Positions 13,144 to 21,243 of a stretch of DNA of 64,000 bases are shown in pieces (position 1 is the first letter of the stretch; each line of letters begins with the position of its first letter). Both the position numbers and the translations under genes were made by a program. The DNA lies in contig NZ_CP068023.1 of assembly GCF_016695175.1 (NCBI RefSeq), positions 298,501 to 362,500 of the forward strand, given 5' to 3'. Origin of the DNA: Pseudoalteromonas sp. GCY. Lineage in GTDB: Bacteria; Pseudomonadota; Gammaproteobacteria; Enterobacterales; Alteromonadaceae. Under the pieces are notes generated by a model, which ran no database searches, had not been told where the DNA came from, and worked only from the letters and a program-made list of their open reading frames with translations.

Positions 13144-15900
13144 ATGTCTCAGATCCCTCAAAATCCGTTGATCTTGGTTGATGGTTCTTCCTATTTATTT
13201 CGTGCTTATCATGCGCCACCACATTTAACAAATTCAAAAGGTGAAGCAACTGGTGCGATCTACGGTGTGATCAATATGCTTAAGAGTTTGCTTAAGCAAT
13301 ATCAACCAAGTCATATGGTAGTAGTCTTTGACGCTAAAGGGCCCACTTTCCGCAACGAAATGTATAGCGAGTATAAAGCGCATCGCCCGCCTATGCCGGA
13401 TGATCTGAGAACGCAAATTGAGCCGATCCACGAAATAATTAAGGCAATGGGCTTGCCACTGGTAAGTATAAGTGGTGTCGAGGCCGATGACGTGATCGGT
13501 ACATTCTCTAAAATAGCGTCAGAGCAAAGTCGACATGTGCTAATCAGCACTGGTGATAAGGATATGGCGCAATTGGTCAATGAACATGTCACGTTGATCA
13601 ACACAATGACGAATACGATCTTAGACCCTGAAGGGGTAGTGGATAAGTTTGGTATTGGTCCTGACTTGATCATCGACTATCTCGCGTTAATGGGAGATAA
13701 GGTCGATAATATTCCGGGCGTACCTGGCGTTGGTGAAAAAACGGCATTGGCGATGCTACAGGGGTTAGGCTCTATCGATTCGCTCTACGAAAACTTAGAC
13801 AAAATTGCTGATTTAGGTTTTCGTGGCTCAAAAACCATGGCGAAAAAACTAGAGGAACACCAAGAGCAGCTAAAACTGTCGTATGAATTAGCCACCATTA
13901 AGCTGGATTGTGAAGTAGAGCAAGACTTAGAGCAATTTAAAATAGCTGAGATGGATAAAGATCGCTTAATCGAGCTATATGGTCAGTGTGAATTTAAGCG
14001 TTGGTTAGCTGAATTGCTGGATGGTCAGTCACAAGCTGACATCGTTGATGTGGAGGCTGAAGGGTCGGCACCTGCAGCGGCGCAGGTCGACACCCAATAC
14101 GAGACCATTTTGACAAAAGCACAGCTTGATGACTGGGTAACTAAGTTAAAAGCAGCCCAGCTCATCGCTTTTGATACTGAAACCACCAGTGTTAACTATA
14201 TGCAGGCGGATCTAGTTGGAATGAGCTTTGCGGTTGCACCGGGCGAAGCGGCTTACTTACCAATCAATCACGACTATGTGGGAGCACCTGAGCAGCTTTC
14301 TCAAGACATGGTGTTTGAGATCATGGCACCGCTACTTGCTGATCCTCAGATCAAAAAAGTGGGCCAAAATTTAAAATATGATCAAAGTGTGCTTGCCCGT
14401 GCCGGGCTTGAACTGCAAGGGATCGCTTTTGATACCATGTTGGAGTCTTACGTATTTAACAGCGTAGGAACTCGTCACGATATGGACTCCTTGGCGCTAA
14501 AATATTTAGGCCATAAAACCATTAGCTTTGAAGACATCGCAGGCAAAGGTAAGAACCAACTGACCTTTAACCAAATTGAGCTAGAAAAGGCGGCGCCTTA
14601 TGCAGCGGAAGACGCTGATATTACACTGAGATTGCATCAACACCTCTGGCCGTTAATTGAAAAAGAAAATCGCCTTAAGCAGGTATTTACAGAGATTGAA
14701 TTACCGCTGCTGAGCGTACTTTCTCGCATTGAACGCACTGGTGTGCACATCGATGGCGATATGCTAGCGAAGCAAAGTATCGAGATTGAAAAACGCTTAG
14801 GTGAGCTTGAACAACAAGCTTTTGAAATTGCAGGTGAGGAGTTCAACCTGAGTTCAACAAAGCAACTACAAGCGATATTGTTCGACAAACTTGAGCTACC
14901 AGTGATTAAGAAAACGCCAAAAGGCGCGCCTTCAACAGCCGAAGAAGTGCTACAAGAGTTGGCGCATGATTATCCACTGCCAAAACTTATTATTGAGCAC
15001 CGTGGCTTGGCTAAGCTGAAATCAACCTATACCGACAAATTACCAAAATTGGTTAATGCGGATACCGGTCGCGTGCACACTTCTTATCATCAAGCCGTTA
15101 CTGCAACGGGCCGTCTAAGCTCAAGCGATCCTAACTTGCAAAATATTCCGATCCGTAATGAAGCGGGACGTCGTATTCGTCAGGCATTTGTTGCCGACAA
15201 TAATAAAAAAATCGTCGCGGCGGATTACAGCCAAATCGAGCTTAGGATCATGGCACATTTGTCACAAGACAAAGGGTTGTTGAGTGCCTTTGCTGAAGGT
15301 AAAGATGTACACAGTGCAACAGCGTCTGAAGTGTTTTCCGTGCCGCTTGAGGAAGTGACTTCTGATATGCGCCGAAAAGCCAAAGCGGTTAACTTTGGTC
15401 TGATCTATGGCATGAGTGCGTTTGGTCTGTCACGTCAGTTAGATATTCCAATAAATGAAGCGCAACATTATATGGATATGTACTTTGAACGCTTCCCAGG
15501 TGTATTAGAGTATATGGAGCGCACGCGTGAAGAGGCTGCTGATAAAGGGTATGTAGAAACCTTATTCGGTCGCCGCTTGTATCTACCGGATATCAATGCG
15601 CGTAATGGCGCTCGCAGAAAAGCAGCAGAACGTGCAGCCATCAACGCACCGATGCAGGGCACTGCGGCGGATATCATCAAAAAGGCGATGATTAAAGTGG
15701 ATGAATGGCTACAAAGCTGTGATAGCAATGATATCCAATTGCTCATGCAAGTGCACGATGAATTAGTGTTTGAAGTACACAGTGATAAAGTTGCCGAATA
15801 CAGTGAAAAAATCTGTGAGTTGATGAGCGCTGCGGCAGTACTTGATGTACCGTTATTAGTTGAAGCTGACAGTGGTGATAACTGGGAACAAGCACACTAG
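13144..15900 (+). CDS. polA: DNA polymerase I
   Basis: 918 residues, full length. The 5'-3' exonuclease domain (about 1-290) begins [16 protein letters not shown] and contains the helix-hairpin-helix [13 protein letters not shown]. The 3'-5' proofreading domain (about 325-520) keeps the FDTETTS metal ligands. The polymerase domain has motif [15 protein letters not shown], the O-helix [14 protein letters not shown], and motif [11 protein letters not shown]. It performs Okazaki fragment processing and repair synthesis. engB follows further downstream, as in E. coli and Vibrio. Confidence 0.98.
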
Positions 15901-15919
15901 TCGATATTAAAATCTACCC

Positions 15920-15941
15920 GAGTTGCACACTAGTGCAACTC
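15920..15941 (+). terminator. Stem-loop after polA
   Basis: Perfect 9-bp inverted repeat GAGTTGCAC/GTGCAACTC with loop ACTA, starting 20 bp after the polA stop. The following CATTCATTCTTG has only a weak T tract, so it may be a 3'-end stabiliser rather than an efficient terminator. Confidence 0.5.
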
Positions 15942-16099
15942 CATTCATTCTTGTTTGCAAGTATACACTAGCAGCATAGCGTCTTAATTTTGTAGCTTCT
16001 GTTAATCCCTAGTAACAAAAAACAAATTAACGTTGAAAGTTTATCAAATTGGCTCAAGTTTTGCCTTTTGGTGTTTATTTCTGGACGTCTATTTGTTAG

Positions 16100-16230
16100 A
16101 GTTCGCGCCGTCCTCATCCTGTAGGACATCCTGTTGATGATGTATCTCTCGAAAGAGGATACAGTGTATTGATAGCTTCTCCCCAGATTGCTATAGCGGC
16201 TCGTAATTTTTACGGGCCGTCTTTTTCTTC
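16100..16230 (+). ncRNA. Candidate structured small RNA downstream of polA
   Basis: This gap between polA and the YceI gene has no ORF with coding character. It shows four consecutive stem-loops: GTCCT/AGGAC (16110-16114, 16123-16127); GTATCTCT/AGAGGATAC with tetraloop CGAA (16142-16162); ATAGC/GCTAT (16172-16194), whose loop holds TCTCCCC; and a 10-bp GC-rich terminator stem (16197-16206, 16210-16219) followed by TCTTTTTCTT. The C-rich loop is complementary to Shine-Dalgarno sequences. The position matches that of spf (Spot 42) in E. coli, but the sequence does not resemble Spot 42. The 5' end is a guess. I see nothing further in 16236-16504 except the next promoter region. Confidence 0.55.
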
Positions 16231-16504
16231 TCTTCTCAAAGATGATACCAATTGATGTAATTCCCCAATCAATGTGCAGGTGAAACCCCTATTATCTTCG
16301 TTAAAAATTTTTTGTTTAGGATAACTAAATCGCAAAATTTTTGCTTGGCTACTAAAGCTATTTTCCCGCTGTAAAATGATTACAATGAGCGTAAAAGTAT
16401 TCCAACATAACGACGAGTTTATGATTAAAGGTTTATTTAATTTGCACTGCGTTTTACACTGAGCGCTCAAATGCAATTCACTCTCATTTAATAAGGAAGT
16501 CGTC

Positions 16505-17074
16505 ATGCTAAAGTACCTTCTTTTAGGTAGTGCACTTATTTCTTCTCAGGCGTTCGCTGCTTGGCAATTTAATCAACAACAAAGCGATGTTAGTTTTGTG
16601 TCTGTGAAACAGACTAGCGTTGCAGAAGTACATCATTTTAAAACGATAGATAGTACATTATCTGCTAAAGGCGAGCTTGAAGTTAATATTGATCTGGCCA
16701 GCGTTGAAACGATGATCCCGATCCGTAATGAACGCATGCAAAAGATGCTGTTCAATGTAGCGCAACACCCAAAGGCTAAAGTCAACGCTGATGTTTCTGA
16801 AGTGCTTGCTAAACTCAAAGCAGGTACACAAAAAATCAATGATGTAACAGCAACATTGACACTGCATGGTCAGATCCAAAAGATCAGCCTAGACTTATTG
16901 ATAACGAAAAGTGCTAATGGCTTGGTGGTTACACCGGTACATGCATTTATTCTCGATTCTAAGCAGTTTGGGTTAGATAAAGGGATTGAAGCGCTACGAG
17001 AAATCGCGGGTCTGAAGACTATCGCGACTAGCGTGCCTGTTAGCTTCAACTTGGTTTTTGATGAACAAAATTGA
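16505..17074 (+). CDS. YceI family periplasmic protein
   Basis: 189 residues with a signal peptide (LLLGSALISSQAFA, cleavage near residue 18). The rest is a YceI-like lipocalin-type beta-barrel: AWQFNQQQSDVSFVSVKQ, then VETMIPIRNERMQKMLF and HPKAKVNAD. Family members bind polyisoprenoid lipids; some are base-induced. Ribosome site AAGGAAG is 6-7 bp before the ATG. The 3' end overlaps the DUF1285 gene, so the pair is probably one operon. Confidence 0.9.
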   Translation: MLKYLLLGSALISSQAFAAWQFNQQQSDVSFVSVKQTSVAEVHHFKTIDSTLSAKGELEVNIDLASVETMIPIRNERMQKMLFNVAQHPKAKVNADVSEVLAKLKAGTQKINDVTATLTLHGQIQKISLDLLITKSANGLVVTPVHAFILDSKQFGLDKGIEALREIAGLKTIATSVPVSFNLVFDEQN

Positions 17075-17591
17075 TGCGTTAATCAAACAGTATGTTACGA
17101 CTCATGCGCCGACCGAAAATTGGTCGGCGCCGTCGTGCGGTTTTTCTGACATCAAAATTGCGGCGGATGGCCGTTGGTTTCATCAAGGGCGTGAAATTAA
17201 ACGGCAATCGCTTGTTGCCTTGTTTGCTAGTGTTTTAACCTTTGATGGTCAACAGTATTGGTTAAAAACCCCAGCAGAAAGTTGTGAGATAGAGGTGCTT
17301 GCTCATCCTTTTATTATCGAGCAATGGCGTTACTGTGATGAAGCATCGGCTTTGGAGTTATCACCTTGTATTATCGCGATAGATAATTTAGGCCGTGAAT
17401 GGCCCATTTGTGATGTGTTTCCATTAGCCCTTGAGCATGTTAATGGGGGAGATATTCCATTTCTCACACTCAATTATGGTTTAACCGCTAGAATTTCACG
17501 AAATGTCTATTATCAGTGGGCTGAACTGCTCGAGGAAGATGAAAAAGGCTTTTATCTGAAGTCGGCAAAGACGCGCTTTTATCTTAGCTAA
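17061..17591 (+). CDS. DUF1285 domain protein
   Basis: 176 residues from the ATG at 17061; a TTG sits directly before it. It overlaps the YceI gene by 14 bp. ISDIKIAADGRWFHQGREIKR-type N-terminus, then FASVLTFDGQQYWLKTPAE, then a PLALEHVNGGDIPFL segment are the DUF1285 pattern. The fold has been described as PH-like in the family, but the function is unknown. No signal peptide. The 3' end faces engB, with only an imperfect stem TAAGCGC/GCGCTTA at 17589-17613 between them. Confidence 0.8.
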   Translation: MNKIDALIKQYVTTHAPTENWSAPSCGFSDIKIAADGRWFHQGREIKRQSLVALFASVLTFDGQQYWLKTPAESCEIEVLAHPFIIEQWRYCDEASALELSPCIIAIDNLGREWPICDVFPLALEHVNGGDIPFLTLNYGLTARISRNVYYQWAELLEEDEKGFYLKSAKTRFYLS

Positions 17592-17615
17592 GCGCGCCTT
17601 ACGTTAGCGCTTAGG

Positions 17616-18254
17616 TTACTCGCTCGCTTCTTCTTGAACTTCTTTCACAAATGGACCTAAGTACCAATCGTCCAGTTTCCACGCCAATTCGTTTAACCCG
17701 ATGCCTTTCAAAGAAGAAAACGCGTGAACGGTGATATCACCGTCTATTTCAGCTAGCGCACGGCGTACTTGTAGTACTTCTGCTTTGCGCTTACCTTGTT
17801 TTAGCTTATCGGCTTTAGTCAACAACGCCAATACTGGTATATTGCTGCCAGTCGCCCAGTTGATGAGATCCATATCGAGATCTTTAAGAGGGTGACGAAT
17901 ATCCATTAATACCACAATCCCTTTAAGACATTTTCGGCGTTGTAAATATTCACCTAATGCCTTTTGCCATTTCTTCTTCATCTCTAACGGGACTTTTGCA
18001 AAGCCATAGCCAGGTAAATCAATCAAACGCTGATCTTCACCTAGAGAAAAAGTATTAATAAGCTGAGTCCGGCCAGGTGTTTTACTGGTGCGCGCCAGTT
18101 TTTGGTCTGTAAGCGTATTGAGCGCGCTCGACTTACCAGCGTTAGAACGACCCGCAAAAGCAACTTCAATTCCAGTGTCTGGTGGCAGTTTACTGATATC
18201 TGGGGCACTTGTGATAAATTGTGCCTGATTGTATTTAACGCGAGATTTTAGCAC
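17616..18254 (-). CDS. engB: Ribosome biogenesis GTPase EngB (YihA/YsxC)
   Basis: 212 residues, TRAFAC GTPase. G1 AGRSNAGKS (near residue 32), G3 [10 protein letters not shown] and G4 [10 protein letters not shown] are present. Family members assist late 50S subunit assembly. The gene sits near polA, as in E. coli and Vibrio, although a small RNA and the YceI/DUF1285 pair lie between them here. Confidence 0.96.
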
Positions 18255-18708: not shown

Positions 18709-19341
18709 ATGAAAAAAATAGCATTAACTTTAACAATGTTGCTTGGTACGTTGTCAGCAAGCAACGCATCGGCATTCGATGGTGACGCGGAAGCAGGTAA
18801 AGCAAAGTCTGCAACGTGTGCAGCATGTCACGGTCCAGATGGCAATGCCCCTGTGACTATGTATCCTAAAATCGCAGGTCAGCATGCAGATTATATCTAT
18901 AAGCAGCTACAAGAGTTTAAGCTAGGTATGACGTCTGGTGGTAAAGAAGGGCGTATGGATCCTGTGATGAGTGGTATGGCTATGCCGCTGTCAGATCAAG
19001 ATATGAAAGATTTAGCCGCATATTTCTCTTCTTTATCTATGTCTGCTGGTTCAACGCCGGAAGATGTTGTTGCTGTAGGTCAGAAGCTATATAAAGCCGG
19101 TGATGCTGAGCGTGGTATTCCAGCTTGCGCTGCGTGTCACGGTCCTCGTGGTAACGGTACTTCTTTAGCTAAGTTCCCTAAAGTGTCATTCCAGCACCCT
19201 GAGTACATCAAATCACAGCTTGAGAAGTTCCGTGATGGCACTCGTAACAACGACATGAATGGTATGATGCGTGATATTGCGCAGAAGCTTACAGACAAAG
19301 ACATCGAAGTATTATCTAAGTACTTAGGTGGTCTACACTAA
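18709..19341 (+). CDS. Di-haem cytochrome c4
   Basis: 210 residues with a signal peptide (cleavage expected after ASNASA near residue 22). Two haem motifs, each CAACHG, near residues 36 and 138, define two homologous cytochrome c domains, each with a downstream axial Met (SGMAMPLSD; GMMRDI). Cytochrome c4 is a periplasmic electron donor to cbb3- or caa3-type oxidases. Monocistronic, followed by a good terminator. Confidence 0.95.
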   Translation: MKKIALTLTMLLGTLSASNASAFDGDAEAGKAKSATCAACHGPDGNAPVTMYPKIAGQHADYIYKQLQEFKLGMTSGGKEGRMDPVMSGMAMPLSDQDMKDLAAYFSSLSMSAGSTPEDVVAVGQKLYKAGDAERGIPACAACHGPRGNGTSLAKFPKVSFQHPEYIKSQLEKFRDGTRNNDMNGMMRDIAQKLTDKDIEVLSKYLGGLH

Positions 19342-19394
19342 AGTCGTATAGTGAGTTTACCTCTCTCAGTGTAAACTCTTACTATTGAAAAAAG

Positions 19395-19417
19395 GGCAGC
19401 ATAGGCTGCCTTTTTTT
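19395..19417 (+). terminator. Intrinsic terminator of cytochrome c4
   Basis: GGCAGC/GCTGCC stem (19395-19400, 19405-19410), loop ATAG, followed by seven T. Confidence 0.85.
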
Positions 19418-19428
19418 GTTGTTGAGGT

Positions 19429-19446
19429 TGTGAGATATATCTCACT
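19429..19446 (+). promoter_or_regulatory. UvrY/GacA-type binding palindrome upstream of the CsrB-like RNA
   Basis: TGTGAGATATATCTCACT contains a perfect 16-bp palindrome (GTGAGATATATCTCAC, 19430-19445). It resembles the inverted repeat bound by UvrY/SirA/GacA upstream of csrB-type genes. It lies about 150 bp before the start of the GGA-rich RNA, a distance like that of the E. coli site. Further half-site-like TGTAAG sequences follow at about 19452 and 19531. Confidence 0.6.
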
Positions 19447-19589
19447 TTTAATGTAAGATATTTGCTCGTTCAATATGTGAGTTTTAGCTTATTTTTAAGT
19501 TCTTGTTCAGTGTAAGTTTATGTAATTCATCTTTTTTCTGTTTAATTAAAAAAATTAAGGTAAGAAATTTGTTATTAAACAGTTGTAAC

Positions 19590-19917
19590 TCAAGCTCAGG
19601 AGCGTAGATTATTCGTTGTCGCCAAGCAATACAAAAAAAGGGACAATTCGATACGGAAGCGTAGGTGGCAAAGTTATGTATCTAGTTGGATACGAAGGAC
19701 TATCAAGAAAGCGTCAGGAAGACCGAGAATAAGAAAATCACGGAAGTCTCATAATAAAAACAATATGGAAAGTGTCATGGAAGTCTAAAATAAAAACAAT
19801 ACGGACGACAATAAAATAAAAAGAATAACAATAAGACTTAAAAGTCGAAGGGAGAAGTGTCCAGTTGTGACGCTCAGATTAGTAGGCGGTAGAGAGTGAT
19901 CTCTGCCGCCTTTTTAT
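19590..19917 (+). ncRNA. CsrB-family regulatory RNA (candidate)
   Basis: No ORF here, but eleven GGA motifs occur between 19599 and 19853 (at 19599, 19641, 19655, 19688, 19697, 19717, 19742, 19767, 19779, 19803, 19851). Many have the CsrA-binding look (CAGGAGCG, ACGGAAGC, GTCAGGAAGAC, TACGGAC), separated by A-rich linkers. It ends in a strong terminator: an 11-bp stem GGCGGTAGAGA/TCTCTGCCGCC (19885-19910), loop GTGA, then TTTTT. CsrB-type RNAs sequester the translational regulator CsrA. The UvrY/GacA-type palindrome upstream supports the call. The 5' end is approximate. Confidence 0.82.
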
Positions 19918-19977
19918 TTGGTTGCCTCTATTATACCTGATACAATAGCCGCCTTATTAAGCAATCACTGTTGACCA

Positions 19978-20655: not shown

Positions 20656-21243
20656 ATGACCAGAAAGAAAAAGACACGTAAAGTTGCAGCCAATGGAACA
20701 CCAAGGCTGAGTAAAGAAAAGCTCCAAGCATTACGTGCACTCAAAGAGCAGCGTAGCAAAAAAACCAAGGGTAAAAAGCCGGGTTCTAGAAATGCACCAG
20801 AGATCCTAGTGAAAGAGCAATCAAACACGACGACCAATAAAGATCCGCGTGTTGGTAGCAAAAAGCCCATTTCTTTGGTCGCAGAGCCACAGCCGACTAA
20901 GTCGAATACACAGCCAGAGATGAAGCGCCATCTGCAGCCGCAAGTTAAGTTAACTACAGCGGTAGAGACGTTAACTCCAGAGCAAGAGCTTGAGCAGTTA
21001 GAAAATGACGAACGCTTGATGGCGCTACTTGAACGCCATGAACGCGGTGAACTGCTAACAGGTAAAGATGCGAAATACTTCAATCGCGGCATTGCGCGTC
21101 ATCAGGAGCTATGTGAGATCTTAGGAATTGATGATGAGTTTGAAGAAGGCGATATGCTAGAAGATGATCCAATGGATCAGTTTATGAGTAATGATCTAGC
21201 AAATGAATGGTTAGATGACGACTTTGAGGAAGATGATAAGTAA
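20656..21243 (+). CDS. yihI: Der GTPase-activating protein YihI
   Basis: 195 residues. The N-terminus is very basic and low-complexity (MTRKKKTRKVAAN, then KKTKGKKPGSRN). The C-terminal part is acidic, with the conserved LEQLENDERLMALLERHERGE and NRGIARHQELCEILGI. YihI stimulates the GTPase Der (EngA) and modulates 50S assembly. The stop overlaps the next ATG by one base (TAATG), so the two genes are coupled. Confidence 0.92.
   Translation: MTRKKKTRKVAANGTPRLSKEKLQALRALKEQRSKKTKGKKPGSRNAPEILVKEQSNTTTNKDPRVGSKKPISLVAEPQPTKSNTQPEMKRHLQPQVKLTTAVETLTPEQELEQLENDERLMALLERHERGELLTGKDAKYFNRGIARHQELCEILGIDDEFEEGDMLEDDPMDQFMSNDLANEWLDDDFEEDDK

Follow-up and report, generated by a model that had tools for sequence, protein, structure and literature searches.

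A probable csrC orthologue with AAN-repeat linkers beside yihI in Pseudoalteromonas

Introduction

In the 64,000-nucleotide stretch of Pseudoalteromonas sp. GCY DNA analysed here (the window), the plus strand between a cytochrome c4 gene and a methyltransferase gene very likely carries the gene for a Csr-type sponge RNA some 300 nt long, extending from 19617 to about 19916, which would be the orthologue of enterobacterial csrC, act under BarA/UvrY control and titrate CsrA. The first-pass annotation had proposed that a CsrA-sponge RNA is encoded at this place and has a UvrY-type site of its own, and the conserved GGA motifs, the upstream boxes and the synteny uphold this proposal as a prediction from the DNA. 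It had also assigned the gene to the csrB type and considered its position possibly lineage specific, and both points are revised below. The placement as csrC is new, and so is the (AAN)n pattern of the linkers between the GGA sites, which makes a double CsrA/Hfq decoy possible; the function as a Csr sponge is already known.

The explanation draws on anatomy, conservation, covariation, synteny and partner genes from the present analysis, and on the CsrA binding reported for Pf3, a Csr RNA of the same genus (PMC11882849). Upon BarA/UvrY signalling, phosphorylated UvrY would bind TGTRAG boxes arranged in tandem near -180, -157 and -133 and thereby drive transcription from the predicted promoter at 19583-19610. 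The resulting RNA would present about eight to ten GGA sites that titrate CsrA dimers, leading to the release of CsrA-repressed mRNAs.

Anatomy of the predicted RNA gene

The features of the locus are listed in Table 1. No open reading frame of at least 60 amino acids overlaps 19342-19977, in line with the ORF-free stretch of 330 bp described by the first-pass annotation, and the strong terminator that it had described is found as a stem followed by a T run. The upstream neighbour encodes a cytochrome c4 with 100% identity to its P. flavipulchra counterpart. A sigma-70 scan did not pick up the promoter at 19583-19610; a promoter-like block, AGTTGTAAC, followed by GTARATTA and then TGTCGC, is nevertheless near-invariant in the 30 sequences shown, and this places the predicted 5' end of the RNA near 19617, so that the RNA does not include the GGA at 19599. 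The pairing of TGTCGC in helix 1 supports this placement. Farther upstream, between polA and engB (15900-17616), the window carries two small genes where several other loci carry Spot 42, and no Spot 42 match was obtained in the window at the Rfam threshold.

Table 1. Features of the predicted RNA gene and its flanks, in window coordinates (box centres relative to the predicted start)
Feature	Position	Strand	Model or family	Remarks
engB/yihA	17616..18254	-	TIGR03598	Syntenic anchor common to E. coli csrC
Cytochrome c4 gene	18709..19341	+	Pfam PF00034/PF13442	Upstream neighbour, outside the RNA gene
Terminator-like hairpin and T run closing the c4 unit	19395..19418	+		Palindromic stem listed for the minus strand; T run read on the plus strand
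UvrY-type box 1, TGTGAGATATATCTCACT	19429..19446	+		Centre -179.5; only in part of the genus
UvrY-type box 2	19452..19469	+		Centre -156.5; csrC-type in many species (TGTRAGACATTGACCAT); diverged in the window
UvrY-type box 3, TGTGAGTTTTAGCTTATT	19476..19493	+		Centre -132.5
Predicted promoter, TTGTAA, 16 nt, TAGATT	19583..19610	+		Conserved across the genus (alignment only)
Predicted sRNA (putative csrC orthologue, probable Pf3 homologue)	19617..~19916	+		About 300 nt
Ten GGA of the predicted sRNA	19641, 19655, 19688, 19697, 19717, 19742, 19767, 19779, 19803, 19851	+
Helix 1, 5' strand, TGTCGC	19617..19622	+		Pairs with 19665-19670
Long-range helix 2, 5' strand	19710..19715	+		Pairs with 19869-19874
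(AAN)4 linker	19753..19764	+
(AAN)4 linker	19789..19800	+
(AAN)7 linker	19815..19835	+
Intrinsic terminator stem, then T run	19884..19911	+		Helix 6 of the consensus fold; five pairs changed on both sides
yihI	20656..21243	+	PF04220, NF003560	Syntenic anchor common to E. coli csrC

Conservation of the GGA motifs and of the RNA fold

Eleven GGA motifs at 19599-19853 make up the densest 318-nt stretch of the window on either strand, and this density was reached in 6 of 6369 steps of a window scan on the plus strand and in 0 of 6369 on the minus strand. Plain shuffles of 19600-19917 gave 7.3 GGA, and 330 of 2000 were as high as the ten observed; for dinucleotide shuffles the figures were 6.2 and 49 of 2000. 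Because this stretch is rich in A and G, the count alone is weak evidence for a sponge. ANGGA is clearly enriched in the same interval (8 versus 2.4; 1 of 2000 shuffles). Conservation provides a stronger test than the count. The alignment used for it comprised 63 sequences, i.e., 62 named loci and the window, with one locus at a contig end (L037) left out. GGA was the best-kept triplet among those with at least four copies (0.82; the next reached 0.70), and eight of the window motifs are kept in 48 to 63 of the 63 sequences. The less-kept ones are at 19697 (32 of 63), 19688 (11 of 63) and 19599 (5 of 63), the last of which sits between the predicted -35 and -10 elements. The eleven motifs counted by the first-pass annotation are therefore all present, while the predicted RNA itself holds ten, eight of them widely conserved.

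The RNA region was matched in all 36 Pseudoalteromonas genomes, the own genome included, among 60 genomes searched. Outside the genus, one of 24 genomes gave a match, which was short and confined to the terminator. In P. denitrificans (L085), the RNA that follows c4 has only 3 GGA and aligns poorly, and yihI lies about 300 nt farther off than in many relatives; this RNA gene may be disrupted or diverged. The element AAGTCGAAGGGAGAAGTGTC at 19842-19861 is 99% conserved in the 63 sequences, and GGGAGAAGTGTC recurs in three loci of other genera (L169, L170 and L172).

A consensus fold was derived from a reduced alignment of 29 sequences, from which 33 of the 63 had been left out as near-identical (95% rule), together with the divergent, GGA-poor P. 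denitrificans sequence. It consists of a 5' helix, a long-range helix, two small hairpins and a terminator with an outer extension. In this fold 97.9% of cells are paired and 8 pairs are changed on both sides, and 0 of 500 shuffles reached either value, a generous control as the structure was derived from the very alignment on which it was tested. The number of pair types was reached by 2 of 500 shuffles, and sliding the partners reduced pairing to 37-49%. Helix 1 is paired in 97.1% of cells, with two pairs changed on both sides; the long-range helix 2 is paired in 93.7%, with no pair changed on both sides.

Upstream boxes and their putative regulators

The perfect palindrome noted by the first-pass annotation, GTGAGATATATCTCAC at 19430-19445, is present within box 1, but not throughout the genus; the csrC-type box lying 24 bp farther downstream is the more frequent one. 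The palindrome occurs exactly twice in the 5.47-Mb genome (reversed control, 0 times), and its second copy stands before another GGA-rich RNA. Judged by letters and place, the boxes centred at -179.5 and -156.5 are candidate UvrY/GacA-type sites far upstream of the predicted promoter. The UvrY box has been reported as TGTGAGAGATCTCTTACA for E. coli csrB, TGTGAGACATTGCCGATA for E. coli csrC and TGTGAGACATTGACCATT for Salmonella csrC, with a half-site, TGTAAG, located 16 bp farther upstream than the csrC box (PMC4682653). In 39 of the 63 Pseudoalteromonas sequences, a site with 14-17 of the 18 Salmonella csrC box letters is found, in every case exactly at -156.5, and the csrC box of E. coli K-12 has its centre at -159.5 relative to the annotated start. 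Shuffled upstream regions gave a mean best match of 10.2-10.7, and the highest of 50 shuffles per sequence was 11-15; weaker box matches thus overlap with chance, and the weight lies on the constancy of the place. Among the remaining 24 sequences, which include the window, no match to the Salmonella csrC box reaches 14 of 18, and the best ones overlap the shuffle range (maximum 11-15). In most of these, again including the window, box 2 has drifted and the box at -179.5/-180 is the good site, which as a rule is closer to the csrB box. Box 1 of the window matches the E. coli csrB box at 14 of 18 letters and the Salmonella csrC box at 12 of 18.

A looser search for the UvrY 18-mer with at most one mismatch stayed at chance level across the genome (32 sites versus 30 for the control). 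Among the 15 of these 32 sites that were examined as loci (L111-L125), only the present gene (L119) and L112 had at least 11 GGA or TCC per 300 nt. At L112 this GGA/TCC-rich stretch begins some 800 nt ahead of the site and resembles tRNA genes by eye. Within the remaining 17 sites, only the one at C2:3204504 was read. The genome encodes CsrA (one gene), UvrY (68% identical), BarA (39%, nearly full length) and Hfq, and from the boxes and these partner genes we infer that UvrY controls the RNA in Pseudoalteromonas.

Chromosomal position and assignment to csrC

In E. coli K-12 the gene order is polA, spf, yihA (minus), csrC (plus) and yihI (plus). The window shows polA, two small genes (YceI-like and DUF1285), engB/yihA (minus), c4 (plus), the RNA (plus), the methyltransferase gene (plus) and yihI (plus). 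Both RNAs thus share neighbours and orientation, repeated GGA motifs and a 3' terminator, and in much of Pseudoalteromonas also a UvrY box of similar letters and distance. They differ in the intervening c4 and, in the window, methyltransferase genes, in the number of GGA (14 in E. coli csrC, 10 in the window RNA) and in the AAN runs described below (0 versus 45 nt). Across 80 named c4 loci, engB was found upstream on the opposite strand in every case, and yihI downstream in 78, the two exceptions being a contig end and L088.

For a wider view, a class-wide yihI survey was uninformative (2 of 229; the sampling was too broad) and was replaced by an order-wide one, in which yihI was found in 152 of 197 genomes. 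From these 152 genomes, 57 were hand-picked across families and genera, a non-random set covering 17 families. engB was present in 42 of the 57 stretches, invariably on the strand opposite to yihI, and at least 9 GGA per 300 nt preceded yihI in 21 of the 57 (TCC control, 1 of 57). Such a GGA-rich interval occurs in 9 of the 17 families, that of the window included. Four families (f2, f9, f11 and f12) have an interval of 108-469 nt with 0-2 GGA, and individual members of f18, f21 and f25 have no dense GGA interval either; loss or absence of the RNA at this place is common. Contrary to the suggestion, the position is not lineage specific, as the same place is GGA-rich in nine families, in E. coli (csrC) and in V. 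gelatinilyticus; the methyltransferase neighbour, on the other hand, is variable (47 of the 80 named c4 loci).

In four loci (L163, L166, L167 and L168), 12-13 GGA per 300 nt adjoin yihI, with no c4 or engB found in the 5 kb upstream, and the link between the RNA and yihI may hence be tighter than that with c4. These RNAs may correspond to Aln1 of Alteromonas. Aln1a-c of Alteromonas macleodii are reported as Csr-type RNAs and as the highest expressed genes of their data set (PMC5864184); they resemble the window RNA as Csr-type RNAs of another marine gammaproteobacterium and differ in that the three lie within one 404-bp interval.

The first-pass annotation had named the Rfam CsrB and RsmX-Z models as a check, and no Rfam model matched the window at the gathering threshold, a result that formally goes against a Csr RNA. 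At this threshold, however, 18 of the 20 GGA-rich loci scanned at the same place gave no Csr RNA either, and csrC was recognised only in the E. coli locus and in one of family f18, for which reason we take the absent match as a gap in the models. The CsrB model (RF00018) did not match the own genome, with a positive E. coli control. At low threshold, CsrC (RF00084) reached 19.7 of 61 bits with an E-value of 9e-4 over 631 bases, and CrcZ (RF01675) 19.1 of 95 bits with E-values of 0.0056 and 0.21. The best low-threshold E-value, better than that of CsrC, belonged to mir-962 (3.9e-4) and was plainly spurious, corresponding to the terminator hairpin. Elsewhere, the V. gelatinilyticus RNA scored 60.2 bits with the CsrB model (threshold 71) and L213 27.4 bits, while the 3' end of L177 scored 21.6 bits with CsrC. 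The CsrB family and the Vibrio CsrB/C/D RNAs have the predicted function and the GGA architecture in common with the window RNA.

A non-iterated profile of the 29 Pseudoalteromonas sequences matched 26 of 77 other loci, with E-values from 1.7e-10 to 0.013 and a best reversed decoy at 0.87. All 26 matches had the expected strand and fell into the interval from c4 (or the upstream end) to yihI, and they covered Psychrosphaera, Alishewanella, Arsukibacterium, one Rheinheimera, and other genera of the own family and of families f6 and f15. Iteration added marginal Vibrionaceae-like matches (L202, 0.00085). Against E. coli csrC, the iterated DNA profile found the terminator only, on both strands (E 0.0013-0.025), and no bridge beyond it; the csrC identity consequently rests on position and UvrY box.

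A csrB-type copy could also have landed independently between engB and yihI, in which case the RNA would be csrC by place only. Csr sRNA copies do move, as has been reported (PMC6262261). Box 1 of the window is nearer to the csrB box of E. coli and recurs identically at the second GGA-rich RNA of the genome, and the V. gelatinilyticus RNA and L213 score with the CsrB model. We nonetheless consider such a relocation unlikely. Place and orientation recur in E. coli, Vibrio, Alishewanella, Rheinheimera, Psychrosphaera and other families, and sequence similarity connects the alteromonad RNAs. In addition, box 2 is csrC-type in 39 of 63 sequences, near the place of the E. coli csrC box, and E. coli csrB sits elsewhere, between yqcC and syd. 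The RNA is therefore best read as csrC rather than, as first annotated, csrB, by its position and by the UvrY box type common in the genus. Csr RNAs are hard to trace by sequence, and position combined with the UvrY box offers a route for following csrC from E. coli via Vibrio to the alteromonads, although Rfam misses most RNAs at the csrC place.

Relation to the known Csr RNAs of Pseudoalteromonas

P. fuliginea is reported to have three Csr RNAs, Pf1-Pf3 (PMC9927453, PMC11882849). Pf3 of strain BSW20308 has 9 GGA and promoter activity, binds CsrA in vitro and, when tested in E. coli, increases glycogen; it is described as the most widespread of the three (470 of 672 genomes), and a de novo origin has been proposed for two of the Csr RNAs of the genus (PMC11882849). 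The window RNA is very probably the orthologue of Pf3. Both come from the same genus and have AAT/TAA-rich stretches, and relatives of the window RNA with 9 GGA (such as L049 and L057) and AAT-rich linkers fit Pf3. The authors also remarked on zebrafish matches of Pf3 with AAT-rich repeats (PMC11882849), which the AAN linkers would explain as simple AAT-type repeats. For P. fuliginea, Pf deletions and a CsrA RIP-seq already exist. The available extracts of that paper contain no Hfq-binding data for Pf3.

AAN linkers and a possible link to Hfq

The A-rich linkers listed by the first-pass annotation are present, and that description was incomplete: they are (AAN)n arrays, in which two A are nearly invariant in the alignment while the third base drifts. 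In runs of at least four AAN, the third base is T 233 times, A 163, C 116 and G 18 times. Plain A-richness was rejected as the cause of this period, since 0 of 20,000 column permutations within four linkers reached the observed phase contrast. Runs of at least four AAN amount to 45 nt in the window RNA (shuffles, 2.5) and to between 30 and 78 nt across the 29 sequences, and no other, non-overlapping 304-nt stretch of the window exceeds 15 nt. The mean unpaired probability is 0.86 for the AAN runs, 0.64 for GGA and 0.45 for the rest.

The period of three, together with the same-strand genes on both sides, could suggest that there is no separate RNA gene at all and that the stretch is the c4 3' untranslated region, a leader belonging to the methyltransferase operon or a short coding gene whose AAN codons specify Lys and Asn. 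This is most improbable. A coding origin of the linkers was rejected, as the AAN runs fall into different frames within most individual sequences and also from one sequence to another; stop-free stretches on the plus strand reach at most 26-63 codons. Furthermore, c4 has its own terminator-like hairpin, the promoter-like block and the terminator bound the RNA as a unit, and in the four loci where no c4 or engB was found in the 5 kb upstream (L163, L166-L168) the RNA stays by yihI.

AAN runs were absent from E. coli CsrB and CsrC, from the second GGA-rich RNA of the own genome and from the V. gelatinilyticus RNA, and likewise from 13 of 13 loci of Alishewanella, Rheinheimera, Arsukibacterium and one further MAG (L097-L101, L103-L110); some occur in Psychrosphaera and several genera of the own family. 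The same counting rule picks AACAACAAGAAG in the E. coli rpoS leader, which we take to be a known Hfq site. CrcZ, the Hfq decoy of Pseudomonas, shares repeated A-rich triplets with the window RNA and is not known to be built on GGA sites.

It is reported that the distal face of Hfq takes AA(R)N triplets as its ligand, that CrcZ carries several A-rich motifs and serves as a decoy for Hfq, and that Hfq apparently stabilises RsmY, which is a Csr-type RNA (PMC8395346). By analogy, Hfq contact would be the likeliest meaning of the linkers, either for stability, as in RsmY, or as a second decoy function. If the linkers do so, a single RNA would couple CsrA and Hfq, the two principal post-transcriptional regulators in these cells. 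More tentatively, this csrC may be a two-protein decoy that also captures Hfq, with the GGA sites holding CsrA dimers and the AAN linkers threading over the distal face of the Hfq hexamer. One UvrY-driven transcript would then release CsrA-repressed mRNAs and shift the free Hfq pool simultaneously. Among the matches listed from the open-licence PMC literature, as far as its extracts go, we found neither AAN linkers in a Csr RNA nor the name csrC for a Pseudoalteromonas RNA.

A stronger version, in which the RNA is primarily a CrcZ-like Hfq decoy whose linkers bind the distal face and whose GGA sites are secondary, could call upon the conserved AAN phase, the high exposure of the runs and the weak CrcZ match at Rfam. 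Some genomes of the own family also keep AAN runs with few GGA in the RNA at the csrC place (48 nt of AAN and 5 GGA in L161, 27 nt and 3 in L164, 27 nt and 4 in L165). Against this stand GGA as the best-kept triplet in Pseudoalteromonas and the CsrA binding of the probable orthologue Pf3 (PMC11882849); CrcZ moreover differs in place, between cbrB and pcnB, and in its regulator, being dependent on CbrB/RpoN (PMC8395346). We regard a primary Hfq decoy as very unlikely and retain the CsrA sponge as the main function.

In four loci from other genera of the own family (L161, L164, L165 and L172), the RNA after c4 has only 3-6 GGA along with 27-48 nt of AAN runs. A pattern search, which likewise overlooks the csrC box of E. 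coli, showed no UvrY box between c4 and these RNAs. They may no longer be under Csr control; if the two-protein decoy holds, the dwindled GGA with retained AAN in some genera of the own family would represent a CsrA sponge turning into an Hfq sponge.

A second GGA-rich RNA in the same genome

A second Csr-like RNA lies outside the window, at G000:C2:3204505 to about 3205300 (L222 2005-2800), between the genes for a solute-binding protein and a DTW-domain protein. It starts with the same palindrome, followed by 29 GGA in about 570 nt and a terminator-like hairpin, and is unusually long for the Csr family. Rfam gave no match to it even at an E-value of 0.5. In 20 of 41 genomes searched it was matched, mostly at its 3' end only, and it may be Pf1 or Pf2.
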